From a virus, in the IMG/VR virus record IMGVR_UViG_3300033144_004868, positions 1 through 35,831 of that record: a stretch of DNA of 35,831 bases; one strand, given 5' to 3'. A program made the translations under genes and the position numbers. The notes under the pieces were generated by a model, which was not told the origin of the DNA, searched no databases, and saw nothing but the letters and a program-made list of their open reading frames with translations. Shown here in pieces: positions 2,264 to 24,045 of this stretch; the stretch's first letter is position 1; every line of letters starts with the position of its first letter.

Positions 2264-2305
2264 CGGGGGGGCGGGGGCACTGAGATCACCGTCCCCCCGT
2301 TATTT
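2264..2305 (+). terminator. possible rho-independent terminator / GC hairpin
   Basis: CGGGGGG at 2264-2270 can pair with CCCCCCG at 2293-2299 and is followed by TTATTT. The tract is only weakly U-rich, and the element lies between the basic peptide gene and the lectin-like tail gene. It may attenuate rather than stop transcription. Confidence 0.35.
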
Positions 2306-2314
2306 GGAGGACCG

Positions 2315-3436
2315 ATGGCGACCAGAACCCACATTGTTACCATGAGTGGGGATTTCGCTGGCAACTATGAAGGTGCCGCGCTCAACCTGAAGATATATGG
2401 AACCTCCACCCTTGGCAGGGTTCGAGCCAAGAAGAGTGCTGCTGGATATTTCGCATTCAACATCGACGCTGCTGCATCTCAGGTAGATAAGTTCATCGCC
2501 GCTGAGTCCGTGGTTGTCGATTTCAATGCTGCAACCATTTTGCAGAATGCGGCTGGCTCCGCAGTATCAGATGGCGATACCATCAACTTCTGGAACAACG
2601 ATGCTGCCGACAATGAAGCCACTGCTCCATCTGGAGATGAGCCAGAGTGGATGGAAGAGGGCGACCAGATCACCAACTCCCCAACAGTTGACTTCCTGAC
2701 CAATGGAGGGGATGAGCGTTTTGTCCTGGGCACTGCCCCATCATTTGCTTCTGGAGAAGAATTCTCAATCGCTATTGTGGTTGACAATGGAAACACCAAC
2801 ACCAACCGACCTTTTGTAGGTAGCGATGTCGGTGCAGGATCAAACGCATCACGATATGGAAATGGCTCAAACAGAAACATAATGATTCAAGATGAGTCTG
2901 GGAATTCTATTGAATCAACTGCTGGAAGTTCAACAAACTTCAAGAACAAGGACATCCATGTTGCGGTGAGGCTTGCAAATGACCGGGTACACGCATACCG
3001 AAGAGGGGTGGAAATACTTGACGGGACAAGCACCCTGTCCGGCACCTTTTCCCCCTCGATCATTGGGAATGCGAGAGAGAGCAGTTCTTGGGGTGGTCAA
3101 AAAGCAAATATCACCAGGGTCATAGTTGCAGATGAGGCATGGAGTGATGCTTCAAGAGAAAATGTTGAAGCGTGGTTGGCGTGGGAATACGATCTGCAAA
3201 CAGGCAGTAATTCATACCTTCCTTCCTCCCATGTTGGATACCGATCAGATCCAAGGACTTCAAAGGCACCAGCATTCTCCTCAGACATTGATCTGTCTGC
3301 TCTTGCGGTGGATACCTGGAGTTCTTATTTCGCCCCATCTAGTCTTCCGTGGGATGTAGATGGACCGATAGCCATCTATCCAACCAAAGACTACAAGGCT
3401 GGAACCATCACCATCGAACTTGAGTTTGAAGTCTAA
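2315..3436 (+). CDS. tail protein with concanavalin/LamG-like lectin domain
   Basis: A 373-residue protein. The ATG at 2315 follows GGAGG at 2306-2310. The N-terminal ~100 residues are a beta-rich adaptor-like segment. Residues ~130-300 look like a LamG/concanavalin-type jelly roll: alternating strands (FSIAIVVDNG, IHVAVRL, VHAYRRGVEI) lead to the family's characteristic terminal helix (SRENVEAWLAWEYDL), followed by LPSSHVGY. In the laminin-G-like family this helix usually reads 'e.iegYLAhkwgL..lLp..HPY'. Such domains bind glycans, so a receptor-binding or decoration role on the tail is inferred. The TAA stop overlaps the next ATG (TAATG), which implies coupled translation with the large tail fusion protein. 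Confidence 0.7.
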   Translation: MATRTHIVTMSGDFAGNYEGAALNLKIYGTSTLGRVRAKKSAAGYFAFNIDAAASQVDKFIAAESVVVDFNAATILQNAAGSAVSDGDTINFWNNDAADNEATAPSGDEPEWMEEGDQITNSPTVDFLTNGGDERFVLGTAPSFASGEEFSIAIVVDNGNTNTNRPFVGSDVGAGSNASRYGNGSNRNIMIQDESGNSIESTAGSSTNFKNKDIHVAVRLANDRVHAYRRGVEILDGTSTLSGTFSPSIIGNARESSSWGGQKANITRVIVADEAWSDASRENVEAWLAWEYDLQTGSNSYLPSSHVGYRSDPRTSKAPAFSSDIDLSALAVDTWSSYFAPSSLPWDVDGPIAIYPTKDYKAGTITIELEFEV

Positions 3437-6400
3437 TGGCTATCTCCCTTGTTCCTCCAGGAAACGGCGATACCCCATCGATTGCCCTGAGCAGTAATGG
3501 CTCCACAATAACTCTTGGTCAGCAGAATTGTGCCGTTGATGATCTCTTCATAGTTTTCGGTGGAAACAAAAGCAGCAGCATCAGCACCTCAATCGCAGTT
3601 GTCGATCCCGGTGTTGGGACACCAAGCACCCCTACAGAGTGGGATCTTCCAAGTTTTCCCTATAACTATGGTACTGCTGCTGGGTCAAACAGCAGGGTTG
3701 CCGTTGCGTGGTGGTTCAGAATCACGGCAGCAGACATCGACACTGCTGCTGGCGATCTTGTTGAGGTTGAGATAACGCCCCCACAGAGTCGGTGTCAATA
3801 CGGGATCAATGTTTGGCGAGGAGTAGGCACAACGCACTTTGATGGCGTTGCCGATAGCCAGACTATGATCGGATTGACGAGTCAGGTTGATCGTCCCGCA
3901 TTGGGAAGAACATTCACATGGACTGATTCTGACACACTCCCGACAACCACATCAGATCCCTGGTCGGATACTTTCTTCGACAGCTCCATGACCGTGCTTG
4001 CGATGGCAATCAACGATAGATCCAACTGGAATGCTCCAAGTCAACTGGCCTTCCCGTCCGGCTGGACTACCTGTATTTATGGAGTCGGAAGCACCCTTGC
4101 TTCTAACGAAATAAGTAGCAACGGGCAAAGTTCCGTGATGCTTTATTCGCAATATGCGAACTTTGCTGATGCTGATGCCGCTAGTGATCCAGGCATGGCA
4201 ACCCCTCTTGATCTCGCAGATACAAGCGGCAATTCGACTACCACAAGGCAGTTGACCCTGTGGATTGCGTTCAAGGAGGATGCGTCTGGTCCTGCCCCTC
4301 AATCCGTTTCAGCTTCTGCCACCTTCGCTAGCCCATCGTCGTCCGTTCTGGTTACTCACGGAAGGTCAGGGTCTGCTGAATTAAGAAACTCCCTCGGCGA
4401 TGTGGTTGTCACTCTCGTTATTGAGAGGTCTACGCCGACAGCTTCGGCCACCTTCGCATCACCAACCGCAACCACTACCAGGGAGGTCGGCGCGACCCCC
4501 AGTGCTTCGGCCACCTTCGCATCACCAACCGCAACCACTTCAGCGACCTTCGGGGTGACGGCAACCTCCTCGGCCACCTTCGCTGCCCCCTCTGGGACAT
4601 CAGCCGCGACCCTCCCTCGGGCCAGCTCCGCTTCTGCCACCTTCGCTGCCCCGGTAGCCTCGACCTCAGCCGTCGAGTCCGAGGCAGTGACAACATCTGC
4701 CACCTTCGCTGCCCCCTCCGCAGTGGTCGCAGTGGACTATGCGGGTTCGGGGTCAGGCTCTGCCACCTTCGCGTCTCCGTCGATCGTGACTTCTGTCGAG
4801 TACACCTCCTCGCCAGCATCCTCAGCCACCTTCGCCACCCCCACTGCTTCGGGTTCCATAGGCGCAGTTACCTATAACCGCTCTGCGAGTGCTAGTGCGT
4901 CTCTCTCGACCCCGGTTTCGACGGGCGATGCCTCGATAGGGGTATCGGGTGATACCTCAGCCACCTTCGCCACCCCCATTTCGTCTACCACTCGGGAGTA
5001 TGCTGGGCCGGCTACGGGGTCAGCGACCTTCGCTTCTCCCTCTTCTGCGGTGATCGCCACCTTTGAGAGGACGGCAGCAGGTTCGGCTACATTCCCGACC
5101 CCGACCGCATCGGCATCATCTACAGAGGTTACCCTCGCCTCGGCCTCAGCAACCTTCGCCCCTCCATCTGCCACGGTCACCGTGGAATTGGATGTGGTGG
5201 GTGCAGCCTCGGCCAGCTCCCAGGCTTCCACAACAACGGTGGTGGTGAGCGAGCGAGACGGGGACGCTTCTTTCTCGACGACCATCGCTGTTACTCGGAC
5301 TGTGGAGCATCAAGCAGACGGTTCCGCGTCTGCCTCGATAAGTGCTTCTGCTGTGGCAAACGCCAACGATTTGAACCCGACCCTACTCGAGGCGATGACT
5401 GCCCATGTATCAACTACGGCAACAAGAGAACTCCCCAGTCAGTCTGTTTCTGTGGCTGCCGCAATGTCTGTCTCTTCTGGCAGACAACCAGTAGGTCCGT
5501 CCGATCCCCTACAAAAAACAGTGACTATTCATGGCGTTGTGCTGCCGGGTAGTGAATCTCAAATACCCATCACCATTTCCGGCACGGTTATTGACTCTAT
5601 TTCTGTGATATACGGGGTTAACCTCATGGTTGACGGATCGGTCGCAGTTTCCGCATCGTCGTCGGGTGGGTCGCGTAACTTTGATGGAGATGTTGGGGTC
5701 TCGCTATCGAGTTCCGCGTCTGCTAATCCAGGGAATGGTAGCCGGTACTTCCCGCAAGTAATTATCGATGGTGTGGGGTCTATTGGAACCACCTTGAATT
5801 CCACCTTTGAGGGTGAAGTTATCATCGACGGAATAGCGAGCCTTTCTGCCCCGCTCTTAACTGAAGGAGAAGTTGTGACAGTAGTACAAATCTGGAATGT
5901 TGCGTTAGTTGAGCTTGGAGTCGGCACTGTTGGCACTACCAGCGATGGTTCTGCCCAGGCTATCTTGTTAAACACGGTTTGGGATGGTGGCTTCCGCGCC
6001 CAGTTCCTTGCCGACCATGCATGGAATGGAGCCAAGCGAACGATCGGCTTGACCACCTTCAAGGACTCTTCTGGCGATGCGGTCTCCCCCTCGGGGACTC
6101 GCTGGAGTAATGCGTATGACCTCCCCGAGGACTACTTGCGGGCCTTGACGATCAATGGTCTTCCCATGCAGCCAAACGGTTCCAGGGGTCAGAACCAGTG
6201 GGAGATCGAAGTTGTTAGCGATGGGGAATCCTCTCCCACCTTGAAGCGTTGCCTCCTCTCAAACGAGGGGACGATCTCCCTGGAGTATGTTATGGACATC
6301 GGTGACAACATTGGCCTGTTGTCCCCCCTTGTTGCTCATGCGATGGGGTTGGCCCTTGCAGCCTTTGTGGCAACAAACTTCGGGAAGCCCCCAACAGAAC

Positions 6401-6516
6401 AGGCGTTCATCGGCCAGAGAGCAGCAGATGCGTTGCTTGCTGCCAAGGGGGTTGACGGGCAAGAGAGCAGTCCCCGTATGTTCTCGAGTACATCATTGCT
6501 TGATGTGAGGAGATAG
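3436..6516 (+). CDS. repeat-bearing tail protein fused to a gp11-like tail tubular adaptor
   Basis: A 1026-residue protein whose ATG overlaps the preceding stop. Residues ~1-280 form a beta-sandwich-like region (WWFRITAADIDTAAGD, INVWRGVGTTHFDG) typical of phage tail extensions. Residues ~290-580 carry about 13 imperfect SATFA(S/A/T)P repeats of ~21 residues. Residues ~595-813 are Ser/Thr/Val-rich beta repeats. The last ~213 residues resemble T7 gp11 (tail tubular protein A): NVALVELGVGTVG, then LLNTVWDGGFRAQFLADHAW, then SNAYDLPEDYLRALTINGLP, then a helix ending LAAFVATNFGKP. No separate gp11 gene is seen and the gp12 homologue follows directly, matching the T7 order. An in-frame GTG at codon 814 with a strong Shine-Dalgarno could also yield the adaptor alone. 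The gp11 assignment is pattern-based. Confidence 0.75.
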   Translation: MAISLVPPGNGDTPSIALSSNGSTITLGQQNCAVDDLFIVFGGNKSSSISTSIAVVDPGVGTPSTPTEWDLPSFPYNYGTAAGSNSRVAVAWWFRITAADIDTAAGDLVEVEITPPQSRCQYGINVWRGVGTTHFDGVADSQTMIGLTSQVDRPALGRTFTWTDSDTLPTTTSDPWSDTFFDSSMTVLAMAINDRSNWNAPSQLAFPSGWTTCIYGVGSTLASNEISSNGQSSVMLYSQYANFADADAASDPGMATPLDLADTSGNSTTTRQLTLWIAFKEDASGPAPQSVSASATFASPSSSVLVTHGRSGSAELRNSLGDVVVTLVIERSTPTASATFASPTATTTREVGATPSASATFASPTATTSATFGVTATSSATFAAPSGTSAATLPRASSASATFAAPVASTSAVESEAVTTSATFAAPSAVVAVDYAGSGSGSATFASPSIVTSVEYTSSPASSATFATPTASGSIGAVTYNRSASASASLSTPVSTGDASIGVSGDTSATFATPISSTTREYAGPATGSATFASPSSAVIATFERTAAGSATFPTPTASASSTEVTLASASATFAPPSATVTVELDVVGAASASSQASTTTVVVSERDGDASFSTTIAVTRTVEHQADGSASASISASAVANANDLNPTLLEAMTAHVSTTATRELPSQSVSVAAAMSVSSGRQPVGPSDPLQKTVTIHGVVLPGSESQIPITISGTVIDSISVIYGVNLMVDGSVAVSASSSGGSRNFDGDVGVSLSSSASANPGNGSRYFPQVIIDGVGSIGTTLNSTFEGEVIIDGIASLSAPLLTEGEVVTVVQIWNVALVELGVGTVGTTSDGSAQAILLNTVWDGGFRAQFLADHAWNGAKRTIGLTTFKDSSGDAVSPSGTRWSNAYDLPEDYLRALTINGLPMQPNGSRGQNQWEIEVVSDGESSPTLKRCLLSNEGTISLEYVMDIGDNIGLLSPLVAHAMGLALAAFVATNFGKPPTEQAFIGQRAADALLAAKGVDGQESSPRMFSSTSLLDVRR
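4305..5175 (+). repeat. tandem coding repeat, ~63-bp units (SATFAxP)
   Basis: The core GCCACCTTCGC or a close variant recurs at about 4317, 4446, 4509, 4545, 4570, 4633, 4699, 4762, 4826, 4961, 5024, 5086 and 5148, mostly ~63 bp apart. One degenerate unit lies near 4885-4920. The neighbouring units at ~4440-4475 and ~4502-4537 share a long identical stretch, showing recent duplication. In protein these are Ser/Ala/Thr/Pro repeats likely to form an extended fibrous stalk. Confidence 0.85.
5864..5877 (+). promoter_or_regulatory. internal ribosome binding site and in-frame GTG start for the adaptor domain
   Basis: AAGGAG at 5864-5869 is five bases upstream of GTG at 5875-5877, which is codon 814 of the 1026-residue gene. 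Initiation here would give a ~213-residue protein starting just before the gp11-like domain, close to the size of T7 gp11. The codons GAA-GGA-GAA could also be coincidental coding sequence. Confidence 0.45.
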
Positions 6517-6520
6517 GTCG

Positions 6521-9154
6521 ATGGTTTGGATTCCACAGGAACGATTTTCGTTTGGGGAGCTGAGTCCAAGGATATTGGGCATGGGCACCTCCGATCAGGT
6601 CCGTCATGGATGCAAGACCCTGACGAACGGAGTTCTGACGAAGACGGGCGGGGTTCGTCGTCGTCCGGGGATCAAGCACATCGACTCCATCGAGGGAAAT
6701 GTTTCGGCGTATCTGGTCCCGTATACCGCAACAGACGGGGACTACCTCCTTGTCTTTACCCATGCTCCGACAAACAAGCTCTTTGTGTATAAGGACGAGG
6801 AGAAGATTGATTGGGGTGGTGGGGGCACTCACGGACCCTATGCGGCCAGTGGTGATGATACCGGCGCACTCCACCCCCTGGGCGAGTCAAATCTCCAGGT
6901 GTCCCACTTCCAGCACAACAACCGGGTCTACATATTCACCGAAGATACCCCGCCCCTGTACTTTGAAAAGAAATACGGGTCGCCTCCAACATACGAGTTC
7001 GGCATCGCCCCCATTGTTGGGGGGTCTCCACAACTGAAGTCCTACAAACCTAAAGTGGGGATCTCGATGCCAGAGCAACCGATCGCAAACCAAGCTGTCA
7101 GCGGCATGGCTGCGCTTTGCAAGGTGGAGTCCACAGAGGATCTATTCAGGCCGGAGGATGTTGGATCTATCTGGCGATTAGGTGGTGGCTCAAAGTTCAG
7201 GGACGAGGCCGATGTGGTGGAGGGAGAGAACCAGTTCAATGGTATTTCCTGCTGGTTCCGAATGGAGGTCTTCAATAGCCCAACCACCTATACGGGCAGA
7301 AGAATAACAAATGGTATGGGGGAAGACCCAAACGACTGGACTGGTCCCTATATTCCCGACACCACATGGGCTGGTTGCTCGTGGTCTGGTGGCAACCGAG
7401 GCGGGTTCGCCACACTGAGCGACATCCCGGTCACCCTCGATAACTCGTATGTCGGGAGAGTCCTGACAGTTCGCAGGGGTCTTTTGCCCTCGGCTTCCAT
7501 CGACACTGCTGTGGTTTGGATTCACTCCATCGACACCGTAGCAAATACCGCGCTGTGCTACAACGCAGGGTGGTCCTTCACCGGGACTGTGTTTCCTGCC
7601 GGAACTTACGATTTCGTCGTGACAAAGATTCCGAAAAGGGAGAAGATCCCCGAAATTGCAGTCTTCCCTCGCGGGGACACCCCAGGTGCCAATGTCGTTT
7701 CCGGAAACTTCGATGTCTTCTCAGAGACGGCAGACTTCCTTCCTCCAGGACACGAGTCGTTATTTGATGGCACTGGAGGGGTTCCAACGCTAGGTGGTGC
7801 CGTCTTCGCTTCCGGCGCAAGGTCTCGGTGCAACGCTCGTACAGATGCCTACGATTACGAGTGCATTGAGGGCACCGCCAGGGGGTACTACGGACCCACC
7901 TTTAACTGGGGGTACGGATTCAGCGTAGCCACTGGATACCCAGCAGTTGGTGCTAGCCACCAGGGTCGAGTGGTCATGTCTGGATTCCAGAACGACTACC
8001 AGAACATCATAGCCAGCAGTCGCAGTGGAGATCCCGATGATTGGGAGCAAGGACCAAACGACGACCAAGGGTTGTTGTTCAAGATCTCCAACAATGTGGG
8101 CAACCGAATCCGCTGGATGGTTTCCCAGCAAGACTTGCTAATAGGGTCGGACTTTTCGGAATACAAGCTTTCCGGGCAACCCCTGACAACCACGAATCTG
8201 TCGGTGGATCTGCAGAGTCAATACGGAAGCAATGTCGGTTCTGCCGCCCACCTTGGTTCGTCGCTAGCCTTCATCCCGCGCGGTGGTCAAGGCATCAGGG
8301 AGATGGCGTACACAGAGGCGAGCAACAGGTATCAGAGCGTCGATCTCACAGACCTTTCGGACCACATATTCTCCTCTGGGAAGCGTGTGAAAAAGATTGT
8401 GTTTAGCACAAGTCCGGACCCTCTCCTGTTTGTGGTGAGCAACCAGCAGTCTCTCGACATCATGACCTATAATCGACAAAACGGAGTGATTGGATGGAGT
8501 CCGACGAACTTGAACTCCCTAGCCGACATGGCGGTCAAGGATATAGCTGTCCTGTCGTCCCTTTCGGGGACCAGAGACGACTCCATCTACATGGTTATGA
8601 GTCGAGTGGTAGATGGCGACACTCAGTATTCCCTTGAGGGTTTCACAGAGTCTGCAGTTCTGGACTCCCAGAAGGTCATTGCCGGAAGCGGGACAACGAT
8701 CACTGGGCTAACTCATCTTGTGGGCGAAACGGTCCAGGTTCTGGTGGACGCTTATTATTATATTGGAGAGTTTGTGGTCTCGGCCACGGGCACGGTAGAT
8801 ATTTCTTCTGCAGTCCCCGGCTACTCTACCGCAACTGTAGGATTGCCATTCACCTTCACAATGGCACCCGCAGTCATTGAAGTTGAGGGCCGAGCTGGAG
8901 CCACGCACGGGCACAAGCGGAGTTACGATCGTGCGTTATTGTACCTGAACAACACTACCGGAGCGCAGGTAGACAAGTATGCCCTGCAAGGCTTGCCGTG
9001 GGTTAGTGGACCTGCGCCAGTCGGGATGAGTGGTTGGCAGGATGTTTCAGTTCTTGGTTTGTATGGGACTAGCCCAACCCTGAACATCACTCACAACAAC
9101 CCGTACACGATTGAGATGCAGAGTATCTCCATCGAGGTTAGTTACTCAGATTAG
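6521..9154 (+). CDS. tail tubular protein B / tail nozzle (gp12-like)
   Basis: An 877-residue protein. The ATG at 6521 is preceded by GAGGAG and begins four bases after the fusion gene. The N terminus carries the hallmark of the T7 gp12 nozzle family: FSFGELSPRILGMGTSDQVRHG, then a TLTNGVLTKTGGVRRRPG-type segment in which an Arg-rich turn follows a conserved Gly-Gly. Downstream are repeated beta segments of a propeller-like protein (YLLVFTHAPTNKLFVYKD, LLFKISNN, NRIRWMVSQQDLLIGSDFSEY) and a C-terminal beta domain (KRSYDRALLYLNNTTG). It forms the tail nozzle that docks on the gp11 adaptor ring, here the C-terminal domain of the upstream gene. Its length is close to T7 gp12 (about 800 residues). 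Confidence 0.9.
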   Translation: MVWIPQERFSFGELSPRILGMGTSDQVRHGCKTLTNGVLTKTGGVRRRPGIKHIDSIEGNVSAYLVPYTATDGDYLLVFTHAPTNKLFVYKDEEKIDWGGGGTHGPYAASGDDTGALHPLGESNLQVSHFQHNNRVYIFTEDTPPLYFEKKYGSPPTYEFGIAPIVGGSPQLKSYKPKVGISMPEQPIANQAVSGMAALCKVESTEDLFRPEDVGSIWRLGGGSKFRDEADVVEGENQFNGISCWFRMEVFNSPTTYTGRRITNGMGEDPNDWTGPYIPDTTWAGCSWSGGNRGGFATLSDIPVTLDNSYVGRVLTVRRGLLPSASIDTAVVWIHSIDTVANTALCYNAGWSFTGTVFPAGTYDFVVTKIPKREKIPEIAVFPRGDTPGANVVSGNFDVFSETADFLPPGHESLFDGTGGVPTLGGAVFASGARSRCNARTDAYDYECIEGTARGYYGPTFNWGYGFSVATGYPAVGASHQGRVVMSGFQNDYQNIIASSRSGDPDDWEQGPNDDQGLLFKISNNVGNRIRWMVSQQDLLIGSDFSEYKLSGQPLTTTNLSVDLQSQYGSNVGSAAHLGSSLAFIPRGGQGIREMAYTEASNRYQSVDLTDLSDHIFSSGKRVKKIVFSTSPDPLLFVVSNQQSLDIMTYNRQNGVIGWSPTNLNSLADMAVKDIAVLSSLSGTRDDSIYMVMSRVVDGDTQYSLEGFTESAVLDSQKVIAGSGTTITGLTHLVGETVQVLVDAYYYIGEFVVSATGTVDISSAVPGYSTATVGLPFTFTMAPAVIEVEGRAGATHGHKRSYDRALLYLNNTTGAQVDKYALQGLPWVSGPAPVGMSGWQDVSVLGLYGTSPTLNITHNNPYTIEMQSISIEVSYSD

Positions 9155-18850: not shown

Positions 18851-19789
18851 ATGAGCTGGCATTATTCGCTGGCACTGCTGGATGCCTTCTCGGAGCGAGG
18901 CTTGCTGGTCACAAGGTCATCGCAGCGGTTGAGAACGAACCGTACTGCATCGAGGTCTTGCTTCGACGGCAGGAGGATGGGTCGCTCGACCCCTTCCCAA
19001 TCTGGGACGACATCAGATCATTTGACGGTAAACCTTGGAATGGCATCGTCGATGTTGTCAGTGCTGGATTCCCCTGTCAACCCTTCAGTCAAGCCGGAAA
19101 GCAACGGATCGACGATGACCGGAATATGTGGCCGGACACGGCGAGAGTCGTTGGCGAAGTACGACCAAGAGTCGTGCTGCTTGAGAACACACCCGAACTG
19201 CTTCGGCTCTACGGAAGTGTTGTCCTCAGTGACCTTGCCCGCCTGGGGTATGATTGTCAGTGGGGAACTGTATCAGCGCACGAAGCCGGAGCGAAACATC
19301 TCCGCAAGCGATGGTGGTGTGTGGCCCACTCCACTGAGTAGGGACTGGAAAGGTCCGAGTGGGAGAAGTCTGAAAGGGTTGGAGTGCGATTTACCAGCAA
19401 AGGTGGAGAGAACCTCGTACCCCACGCCAATAGCCTCTCAGGCGAAAGGAGGTGCAGGGTCGATCAGAAAAGACACGGGAAAACGAAGAGAAGACCGGCT
19501 CGACCATCTGCTCGAACCTGGACAACAGGGAAAACTTAGTCCAGATTGGGTGGAATATCTGATGGGCTGGCCTGTTGGCTGGACCTCCCTCGACCCCCTC
19601 CCTGAAGGAACGATAGAAGCCTGGGAGGCGAGCGTGAAGGCTGGCACTTACTGGGACACTGATCCAGCGGACACAGGTGAGGTTCCACGCCTAACAGAGA
19701 AGAAGGAGAATCGAGTTTCACGCTTGAAGGCAATCGGCAACGGCCAAGTCCCTGCCCAAATCCTCTTGGCCTGGGAAGTGCTGGGGTAG
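18847..19789 (+). pseudogene. C5 cytosine DNA methyltransferase, split into two frames
   Basis: The N-terminal part (18847-19341, GTG start in a GTGA overlap) has motif I (LALFAGTAGC), the catalytic PCQ motif IV (SAGFPCQPFSQAG, Cys77), motif VI as ENTP and a motif VIII-like HLRKRWWCVA, then stops at TAG 19339-19341. The C-terminal part continues in the +1 frame to 19789: VWPTPLSRDWKGPSG, LSPDWVEYLMGWPVGWT and motif X (LKAIGNGQVPAQ). Phage enzymes of this family normally have a linker of tens of residues between 'VAHS' and 'WPTP'. Here the same bases 19319-19333 encode both, in different frames. A deletion between short repeats, or an assembly collapse, is more likely than a single base error. 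The catalytic half might be expressed but would lack the target-recognition region and motif X. Confidence 0.7.
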
Positions 19790-20305
19790 ATGGATCTAGT
19801 TCATATTGAACTGTCTGTAGCCAACCAAATGGTCGCCCTTGTGCATCGTCACCACCTACCTGTTGCTGGGCATCGCTTCAGCCTGGGTGCCGTCAAGGAT
19901 GCCCGATTGGTTGGCGTTGCGATTGTCGGGAGACCAGTTGCTCGAATGCGAGATCAAGTCAATGAGGCTGAAGTCTTGCGAATAGCTACAGACGGAACCA
20001 AGAATGCTTGCAGCTTCTTATTAGGTGCCTGTGGCAGAGCTGCTAAGGCTCTTGGTTATGTAAGAATTCAAACATTTACTCTGGAGATTGAGGGGGGGGG
20101 AAGCCTCTTGGCAGCTGGTTGGAAGAGGGATGGGGATGTCGATTATGGCTCATGGGATCGACCCTCAAGGGGTAGGGATAAAACAAAACATCCCACATCC
20201 GCCAAGGTCCGATGGTCTAGAACATTCCATGACATTGTAGAGTATGAGCAGGTTACCACTAACCCAGAAAGTAACTCTGTTACACAACGGGGATTGTTTG
20301 AATGA
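19790..20305 (+). CDS. XF1762-family protein (GNAT-like fold)
   Basis: A 171-residue protein whose ATG immediately follows the methyltransferase stop. The sequence follows the XF1762 pattern closely: ANQMVALVHRHHLPVAGHRF, then VGVAIVGRPVARM, then LRIATDGTKNACSFLLGACG, RAAKALGY, EIEGGGSLLAAGWKR and RGRDKTKHPTSAKVRW. The family is common in phages and is predicted to be acetyltransferase-like, with unknown substrate. Being next to a DNA methyltransferase may hint at nucleic-acid or nucleotide modification, but that is inference. Confidence 0.8.
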   Translation: MDLVHIELSVANQMVALVHRHHLPVAGHRFSLGAVKDARLVGVAIVGRPVARMRDQVNEAEVLRIATDGTKNACSFLLGACGRAAKALGYVRIQTFTLEIEGGGSLLAAGWKRDGDVDYGSWDRPSRGRDKTKHPTSAKVRWSRTFHDIVEYEQVTTNPESNSVTQRGLFE

Positions 20306-21958: not shown

Positions 21959-23155
21959 TTATTCTTCCCCTGTCATCTCAGCCACAGAGAACTTGGCAGG
22001 GCGATCATTCTCGGTGCTTCTGTACGCACCCTCTCTGGCGGCAGTGAAGTGGTCCTTGCCTCCCCTCTTCGGAACCCTGAGAAGGACATCAAGGTCGCAA
22101 TTGTCCTTCCAGTCCTCAACTTTCTCAGAATCGAATGGAACAAAAACCTCTTCCACCAGACTCCAGAACTTATCAGCGTCAGTTGCCGACAAACCCTCTG
22201 CCTTGGCTCGCTCCCGAATCATCTTCTCTCTTACCGGGGTGATTTTGTACCACTTTCTCACGGGCGCACCGATCTTTGCGGCTACAACCTTCGCCAACTT
22301 CAAGTGGTCGTCCCAGTTCACACCATTTTGAGACGGTGCAGGGGTGTCCACCACAACAACCTCTGGAGCCTCCTGCTTCGCCGCTGGCTTCTTCCCGTTG
22401 TCAGAGGCGGGGGCAGAGTCAGCGTCCACCACACGGGGGGAGGGACGGTCGAGACGGGCTGCTAGCCCCGCAGACCCACGCTTCTTCGCTGGCTGCACCT
22501 CTGCCGGCAGATACTCGGCATCATCACTGCTCTGGATAGCCTCCTGGACCTCCGGAGAAAGCTTGATCCTCTTGAGTGCCCTGCGAATCACGCTCTTCTT
22601 TGCCATCTCCTCGAAATAATGTACCCAAGGTCCGTTGTTTCCAGACCTGGAGCCACTCCTCACTTGCTCGATGTCCTCCATGTTCATCGTCTCGATCTGG
22701 CGACTGCCATTCTTGAGATCGACAAGGCAGTAACTCCCCACCACTTCTCCACGCTCTGCTGTGCCGGCAAACGCATCGTAGTCGTGAGAGAAGCCATCCT
22801 CGGTGCGCTTGTAGAAGTCGTTCTTTCGCACAACACCACTGTGGATAGCACTCACCGTGCCGGACCTGTTGGCGAGGTCGATCAGGCCCGCGTACCCAAT
22901 CACAAGGTTCGCCTGATTGCCGTAGGGGACGATCCACGCACTGCCAAGCACACCAATGTCGAGGCCCAGGTGGGTCGCACGAATGATTGCACTGATGATC
23001 GTGTCAGGTCTGCAGTTCTGAATCGCAGGGTTCATCTTCACCTGACTCGAAACATTTCGCAGGAATCTGTCCTGATCGATGTTCCCAGGCAGCAACTGCA
23101 GCAGGGTGGGGCCGGACTTCTCCAGCCAATTCTCAACTCGTTGAATCGTATTCAC
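21959..23155 (-). CDS. recT: RecT-family single-strand annealing protein
   Basis: A 398-residue protein from the GTG at 23155, in a GTGA overlap with the exonuclease stop. The upstream in-frame extension to 23254 lies inside the exonuclease gene and is not needed. Residues ~1-220 carry the RecT pattern: LQLLPGNIDQDRFLRNVSSQ, then TIISAIIRATHLGLDIGVLG, then AWIVPYGNQANLVIGYAGLI, then WVHYFEEMAKKSVIRRALK. The C-terminal part is a Pro/Ala-rich linker and a helical domain of unknown role. RecT proteins anneal complementary strands and act with a processive exonuclease, which is directly upstream here. Together they would support recombination-dependent replication or repair. Confidence 0.9.
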   Translation of the reverse strand: MNTIQRVENWLEKSGPTLLQLLPGNIDQDRFLRNVSSQVKMNPAIQNCRPDTIISAIIRATHLGLDIGVLGSAWIVPYGNQANLVIGYAGLIDLANRSGTVSAIHSGVVRKNDFYKRTEDGFSHDYDAFAGTAERGEVVGSYCLVDLKNGSRQIETMNMEDIEQVRSGSRSGNNGPWVHYFEEMAKKSVIRRALKRIKLSPEVQEAIQSSDDAEYLPAEVQPAKKRGSAGLAARLDRPSPRVVDADSAPASDNGKKPAAKQEAPEVVVVDTPAPSQNGVNWDDHLKLAKVVAAKIGAPVRKWYKITPVREKMIRERAKAEGLSATDADKFWSLVEEVFVPFDSEKVEDWKDNCDLDVLLRVPKRGGKDHFTAAREGAYRSTENDRPAKFSVAEMTGEE

Positions 23156-24045
23156 TTCTTCTTGCCCTTCCAGCGGAGAACTCTGAACTCCGTGTCTTGA
23201 GTGGTAAAACCAGCTCTCTTTTGTTTGAAATATGTCAGGGTTCCTAGTTCGCACTGACCACCCTCAGTATCTGATAGTGCAGCTAGCAACGCAGTCTTTG
23301 CAGCCTTCTCTTCTCGAGCAGCCTGAGCCTTCACCTCACGGGTCACCAACCACGCTCGAACCAACTCCTCTGGCAAATCCACCGAAGACTCGGGTTGCCT
23401 ACGCAAACTCGTCAATGTCTCCAGGTTAGGGATCACCTCTTGGGGCGGGACTTTTGGGATGACATGGTTGTTCCAGAAATCCATGACCGCAGCCTTGCAG
23501 CCATCCAGAATCTCCTGGTTCAGCGCAACCGTGTAGAGGGTGCGGCGAAGGTTCCCGTCCCCGTGAAGTACGGGAATGACCACCCGGTCCAGGTCGGCAA
23601 CGAAGATTTGCCACTGCACCTGAACAAGAATGTGGTCAGGAACCTCGTCGGTTCCAGTCTCTCCGAAGGCACCATACATGGATGTGGTCTTGGCCTCGAT
23701 CCCGACCCGCTTGTCCTCGTAGATCGAGAACCCATCGAGGTTCGCGTGAGCAGGAAGAACCCTGCCGTCCGGCTCCTCAATCAACTTCGTGAACTTCCTG
23801 TCCACTTCCATCAAGCAGTCTGGGTTTCGATTCCCTATCTGCTCATCTGCCCAGATCACAAGCATCGGCTCGCAGTCGTTGCCTAGATTCTGAGCCTCAC
23901 TCCCTCCTCCCTCGTCAGTTCCAATAACTTTTTGCAGATAGATGTCATGAGCATTTGCGAACGGACTCAAACCCATGATTGCTGCAACATCTGAAGCCCC
24001 GACAGATACCCGTCTGGCCTCCCGTTCCTCCGCTGAAATCGGCAA
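23152..24045 (-). CDS. YqaJ-type 5'-3' exonuclease (RecE/lambda Exo-like)
   Basis: A 297-residue protein from a TTG at 24045, chosen for its AAGGAAGGGAGA Shine-Dalgarno and lack of a nearby ATG. Visible motifs of the YqaJ viral recombinase family are SVGASDVAAIMGLSPF near the start, a helix with LGNDCEP (Glu59), LPAHANLDGF with the metal-binding Asp104, the GIEAKT motif (Glu117, Lys119) and a glutamine motif around VQVQWQ. It would resect double-strand ends to give 3' single strands for the RecT-like partner. It is upstream of recT in the leftward operon. Confidence 0.9.
   Translation of the reverse strand: MPISAEEREARRVSVGASDVAAIMGLSPFANAHDIYLQKVIGTDEGGGSEAQNLGNDCEPMLVIWADEQIGNRNPDCLMEVDRKFTKLIEEPDGRVLPAHANLDGFSIYEDKRVGIEAKTTSMYGAFGETGTDEVPDHILVQVQWQIFVADLDRVVIPVLHGDGNLRRTLYTVALNQEILDGCKAAVMDFWNNHVIPKVPPQEVIPNLETLTSLRRQPESSVDLPEELVRAWLVTREVKAQAAREEKAAKTALLAALSDTEGGQCELGTLTYFKQKRAGFTTQDTEFRVLRWKGKKK

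Follow-up and report, generated by a model that had tools for sequence, protein, structure and literature searches.

A phage gp11-type tail adaptor fused to a fibre-like extension, with a conserved internal start that may provide a second, plain adaptor

Results

The fused gene lies in a T7-like block of structural genes

The window analysed here is the whole of IMG/VR record IMGVR_UViG_3300033144_004868, a stretch of 35,831 bases. On its plus strand, a gene for a 373-residue protein (positions 2315–3436) is followed by a long single open frame with an ATG start (3436–6516), which encodes 1026 residues and ends in a gp11-type adaptor domain, and then by an 877-residue nozzle (gp12-type) gene (6521–9154). 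The latter occupies the nozzle position and matches PHROG 376 (tail protein, E = 2e-85), which confirms the placement of the adaptor directly upstream of the nozzle gene in the preliminary description. An internal virion protein gene (PHROG 418) comes next and, farther along, a gene for a large internal protein with a match to PHROG 342; the terminase, portal (PHROG 332), protease and capsid genes lie at the opposite end of the record. In the related locus L001 a homologue of the window's first gene comes immediately after the capsid gene, and the record therefore reads as a permuted genome with a T7-like order of structural genes. The gene at the left edge (28–300) is cut; its L001 homologue, 3′ of the capsid gene, encodes 148 residues, and the window's copy is probably split between both ends of the permuted record.

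Other features of the record and its relatives lie outside the adaptor gene. A DNA-methyltransferase-like gene (PHROG 1008) and a Mom-like DNA modification gene (PHROG 1384) follow each other at 18851–20305, a pair with a possible role in anti-restriction modification. Genes for a RecT-like annealing protein and a RecE-like exonuclease occupy 21959–24045 on the minus strand and could favour mosaic exchange of the kind seen in the fibre cassette described below. The nozzle genes of L018, L020, L035 and L052 encode ∼1,040–1,125 residues and match the window's nozzle only after ∼520–645 residues; their N-terminal half may have been replaced or expanded. A search against Rfam gave no match.

The C-terminal domain is a gp11-type adaptor

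The C-terminal part of the long frame is a T7 gp11-type tail adaptor, as judged from sequence profiles and a domain model. Residues 814–1025 align with profile positions 2–188 of 190 in PHROG 394 (‘tail protein’, E = 4.8e-22), and a sequence profile reaches the Carin-1 connector, a stand-alone chain of 222 residues (E = 1.6e-22). An AlphaFold2 model of residues 815–1026, built on 24 sequences (pLDDT 83), contains two helices, a beta segment and two further helices; the last 19 residues, where a C-terminal embracing helix or loop would lie, have pLDDT below 50. When this model was compared with the PDB by Foldseek, the top matches were phage tail adaptors, led by the Carin-1 connector (8ck1, E = 1.1e-11) and LME-1 (3.0e-9) and continuing with PhiM1, P-SCSP1u, T7 gp11 (7box, 3.6e-5), HRP29 and KP32 TTPA (5mu4, 1.1e-4).

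The PHROG 394 match and the fold matches bear out the gp11-type assignment made earlier from the sequence. That assignment was to be abandoned if no structural match to gp11 existed, which does not apply, since the model finds both T7 gp11 and KP32 TTPA. The resemblance to P22 gp4 is less close than that to T7 gp11. The T7 adaptor is built from a helix bundle, a fibre dock and an embracing helix (PMC6702177). A beta segment resembling the fibre dock lies between the helices of the model, whereas the P22 and Sf6 adaptors have no fibre-dock domain (PMC9509320). PHROG 394 is matched once in the window's record and once in each of 12 related records; no separate gp11 homologue, the other finding named in advance as adverse, was found elsewhere in the 35.8-kb record.

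The fusion is retained among relatives

IMG/VR was searched with the adaptor domain, which gave 36 loci, and with an alignment, which gave 80; the two sets overlap in part. The adaptor ends a long frame in all loci at least 42% identical and in a deeper group at 32–34% (L060–L064). Complete extensions span ∼610 to 1,410 residues, and ∼1,630 residues are reached where a contig ends inside the frame. Loci at ∼22–31% identity have stand-alone adaptors, most of which begin 2–5 residues before the aligned domain. In a maximum-likelihood tree, a single branch (support 100/100) separates 22 fused from 23 stand-alone lineages, and the stand-alone side includes HTVC010P, HTVC028P, Skadi-3 and HU1. Because long branches meet at this dividing point, one common origin of the fusion is likely but not proven. 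The fusion likely arose when the stop separating a fibre gene from the gp11 gene downstream of it was lost while the original start of gp11 stayed in use.

The fusion at 3436–6516 is real. An assembly artefact was rejected because contigs from many samples retain the fusion, and the description of an adaptor joined to a long repeat protein in a single 1026-residue frame stands. The architecture was also said not to be known, in agreement with our searches: the annotated phage collection held stand-alone adaptors only, a scan of prokaryote genomes gave no relative, and searches confined to open-access literature, which carry little weight as evidence of absence, brought up neither an adaptor–fibre fusion nor an adaptor gene with an internal start. 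Among the isolated phages with a related adaptor within reach of the searches, none showed the fusion.

L060–L064 form a second, deeper fused clade with extensions of ∼1,330 to more than 1,600 residues. These extensions contain lectin-type domains, and a TTGGAGG...TTG junction is present here as well.

A conserved internal start at the junction

A GTG codon at 5875 opens a nested frame within the long gene (5875–6516, plus strand), which would encode a plain adaptor of 213 residues comprising the gp11-type domain. It is preceded by an AAGGAG Shine-Dalgarno-like motif (5864–5869, plus strand), the junction reading ACTGAAGGAGAAGTT-GTG-ACA; the calculated duplex with the anti-Shine-Dalgarno sequence (−8.8 kcal/mol) is the strongest among 53 in-frame start codons. 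The junction is approximately the point where stand-alone adaptors begin. Judged by the ∼200-residue length of a stand-alone adaptor, the 1026-residue frame falls outside the class, and only the predicted 213-residue product of the internal start falls within it.

The junction codon is GTG or TTG in 22/22 fused lineages, each with an AGGAG/GGAGG/GAGAGG-like motif 5–9 nucleotides upstream. The chance that 22 Val/Leu codons would all be GTG or TTG is ∼2e-16, calculated from each gene's codon usage and ignoring relatedness. In a control that keeps relatedness (15 non-redundant lineages), potential start codons stood at the junction in 15/15, and across 33 hydrophobic columns of the codon alignment the next best column reached 7/15, with a mean of 23%. 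The Shine-Dalgarno-like motif persists despite changes in codon frame and in the encoded residues (E-G-E, K-R-S, K-E-V, L-E-D-Y). Its strength relative to synonymous resampling was moderately significant (combined p = 0.008, 15 lineages), and the junction was the top-ranked of all in-frame start codons in 14 of the 22 lineages.

This conservation of start codon and Shine-Dalgarno-like motif points to a separate plain adaptor and hence to a ring that is only partly fibre-bearing. For the same reason, the earlier proposal of a fibre on every ring subunit is probably wrong. Such a ring of 12 fibre-bearing subunits would form if the long fusion alone were made and the internal start were a relic of a stand-alone ancestor, which the continuous single frame and the lack of a second adaptor gene would suit. 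A relic should decay, however, and the GTG/TTG codon is kept in all 22 lineages, down to ∼32–34% identity, while other Val/Leu columns are scrambled and Shine-Dalgarno motifs persist in different codon frames; we regard this alternative as very unlikely. The best reading of the sequences is a nested in-frame gene that would give both a plain 213-residue adaptor and a 1026-residue fibre-adaptor, and so a mixed ring.

The start codon is ATG in 15 of the 16 stand-alone adaptors examined versus none of the 22 fused lineages. Since the internal start is never ATG, initiation there could be weak; a weak codon may limit the amount of the plain form or may preserve an amino acid that suits the long form.

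The long form starts at a stop/start overlap

The start codon of the long frame overlaps the stop codon of the preceding gene in the sequence TAATG (3434–3438, plus strand). TAATG or TGATG is found in 9/17 homologous loci, and the Shine-Dalgarno duplex of the window's long start is weak (−2.2 kcal/mol). Arrangements of this type are associated with termination–reinitiation (PMC6728339), and the long form is probably started by reinitiation after the upstream gene. Some relatives (L001, L008 and L059) have a strong Shine-Dalgarno motif at the long start. The overlap and the poor Shine-Dalgarno motif are consistent with the long product being less abundant than the short one, and no ratio is derivable from them.

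The stronger signal at the internal start could let the short form dominate. On such a reading the ring would consist of plain adaptor only, and the long protein would act apart from it in a structural or accessory role, for instance as a cleaved or free fibre, with its C-terminal adaptor copy as an aid to docking or folding. Every lineage nonetheless keeps the adaptor domain in frame at the C terminus of the long protein, suggesting a use in that position, and the long protein has the full ring-forming domain. A ring without the long form therefore seems improbable to us, and we retain the mixed ring.

The extension resembles a fibre with an exchangeable head

In sequence, the extension looks like a fibre composed of an N-terminal, distal head (residues 1–281, positions 3436–4278), a stalk (residues 294–577, 4315–5166) and a linker (residues 601–813, 5236–5874), all on the plus strand. 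The stalk carries 13 SATFAxP-type motifs with a 21-residue period (10 of the 12 spacings are exactly 21 residues and the other two 24 and 43), and the SATFAxP repeat noted earlier is real. By composition and alignment, the linker is rich in Ser, Val and Gly and contains IDGxGS motifs. The N-terminal beta-sandwich of the preliminary description was not confirmed; the full-length AlphaFold2 model (pLDDT 36) is unusable in that region and was left out of the fold search. Pfam gave no match for the long protein and 12 full-length relatives. Among the lineages, heads are unrelated and repeats differ. The repetitive, elongated stalk of receptor-binding fibres is usually trimeric.

The head and the upstream gene appear to move together. 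The upstream gene, which has only a weak Pfam match and no family match above threshold, is 87.5% identical to its L036 counterpart, and the head is 89% identical to that of L036 and unrelated to that of L001, in other respects the window's nearest relative. The two form an exchanged cassette (2293–4280, plus strand) with 90.1% DNA identity to L036 over 2001 columns, and this identity stops at the head/stalk boundary. Outside the cassette, the window and L036 share 34% protein identity in the capsid, ∼54% in the adaptor and 29% in the nozzle. L001 is 84–88% identical to the window in capsid and adaptor, yet has a different head. The window's head, when searched for elsewhere, was found in L036 only.

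Receptor-binding proteins typically exchange their distal modules, and a cassette shared with an otherwise distant virus is as expected of exchanged receptor-binding modules. From the exchange pattern and the relatives, two of which (L059 and L060) have Laminin_G_3 lectin-type domains in their extensions, we infer a receptor-binding role for the extension. It could instead be a collar decoration or stabilising whisker, given its place at the collar and the lack of any recognisable enzymatic or receptor-specific feature in the head of the window's protein. The exchange of the head as a cassette with its neighbouring gene and the lectin-type domains argue against this, as does the fact that the searches of the record, of which the one with PF03906 had no positive control, recognised no T7-fibre-like gene, with unknown genes remaining; we consider a whisker unlikely, and a fibre remains the preferred reading.

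A strong hairpin lies just upstream of the cassette (2255–2310), in which CCTCC pairs with the GGAGG Shine-Dalgarno motif of the gene at 2315. L001 and L008 preserve this hairpin, with a compensatory change in one pair; it may regulate how the cassette is translated or mark the site of exchange.

Discussion

We think it quite probable that this gene gives rise to two co-assembling tail proteins through two starts, forming a mixed ring in which some subunits bear fibres. Initiation at 3436, probably by reinitiation, would yield the 1026-residue fibre-adaptor with its distal head, stalk, linker and adaptor, and initiation at the internal GTG would yield the plain adaptor. Both forms would have the ring-forming domain in common, the portal-bound ring would be a mixture of the two, and the ratio of initiation would set the number of fibres. 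Each fibre would be covalently part of the ring, with its C terminus at the virion and its N terminus distal. The sequence comparison supplies the basis for this proposal, namely the identity of the adaptor, its in-frame fusion, the conserved internal start signals, the single copy and the head exchange; from these we infer translation from both starts, a mixed ring, its stoichiometry and receptor binding. All conclusions rest on sequence comparison and one domain model.

We lean, more cautiously, towards a wider picture in which a lineage of uncultured phages with short tails has dispensed with the separately docked T7-type fibre: a nested gene would make plain and fibre-bearing ring adaptors, initiation would set the fibre number, and host range would change through swapped heads of reversed, tethered fibres. 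Fibre and adaptor form one polypeptide in the window, and the conserved second start appears to control the number of fibre-bearing copies. If true, this would be an alternative way to equip a 12-fold ring with a limited number of fibres, with the usual fibre polarity reversed, and one start codon would offer a simple handle on fibre number versus infection. Automatic annotation hides the plain adaptor within the long gene.

In T7-type phages the adaptor ring is a dodecamer, and separately made fibres are attached to the adaptor–nozzle collar. The adaptors of T7, KP32, SU10 and Carin-1 resemble that of the window in fold, in PHROG 394 membership, in their place before the nozzle gene and in being present in one copy per genome. 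They are, however, stand-alone proteins of ∼190–230 residues on which separately made fibres dock, whereas the window has 813 residues fused N-terminally and the plain form nested inside the gene; the predicted polarity of its fibre is opposite to that of the T7 gp17 fibre. The fibres of SU10 emerge from the helix bundle of every second adaptor subunit (PMC9509320). A ring composed of plain and fibre-bearing subunits would come to something similar, with fibre and adaptor joined covalently. Among isolated phages whose adaptors are detectably related, the nearest are the Pelagibacter phages HTVC010P, HTVC028P and Skadi and the Pseudomonas phage HU1. Their adaptor gene immediately precedes the tail tube B/nozzle gene or lies near it, as in the window, but unlike the window they have stand-alone adaptor genes with their own ATG and Shine-Dalgarno motif.

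Precedents exist for the two parts of the proposed mechanism. In SPP1, two lengths of one tail tube protein, gp17.1 and gp17.1*, co-assemble at a set ratio of ∼3:1, and the longer form exposes an additional domain akin to FN3 proteins that bind cell surfaces (PMC6316719); the SPP1 long form arises by a +1 frameshift and is extended at its C terminus, whereas the window would use an internal start and has its extra part at the N terminus. In the endolysin LysIME-EF1, an internal ribosome-binding site and start give rise to a separate C-terminal domain, and this assembles together with the full-length chain (PMC7098653). LysIME-EF1 is an enzyme of one long and three short copies, whereas the window's case would be a virion ring.
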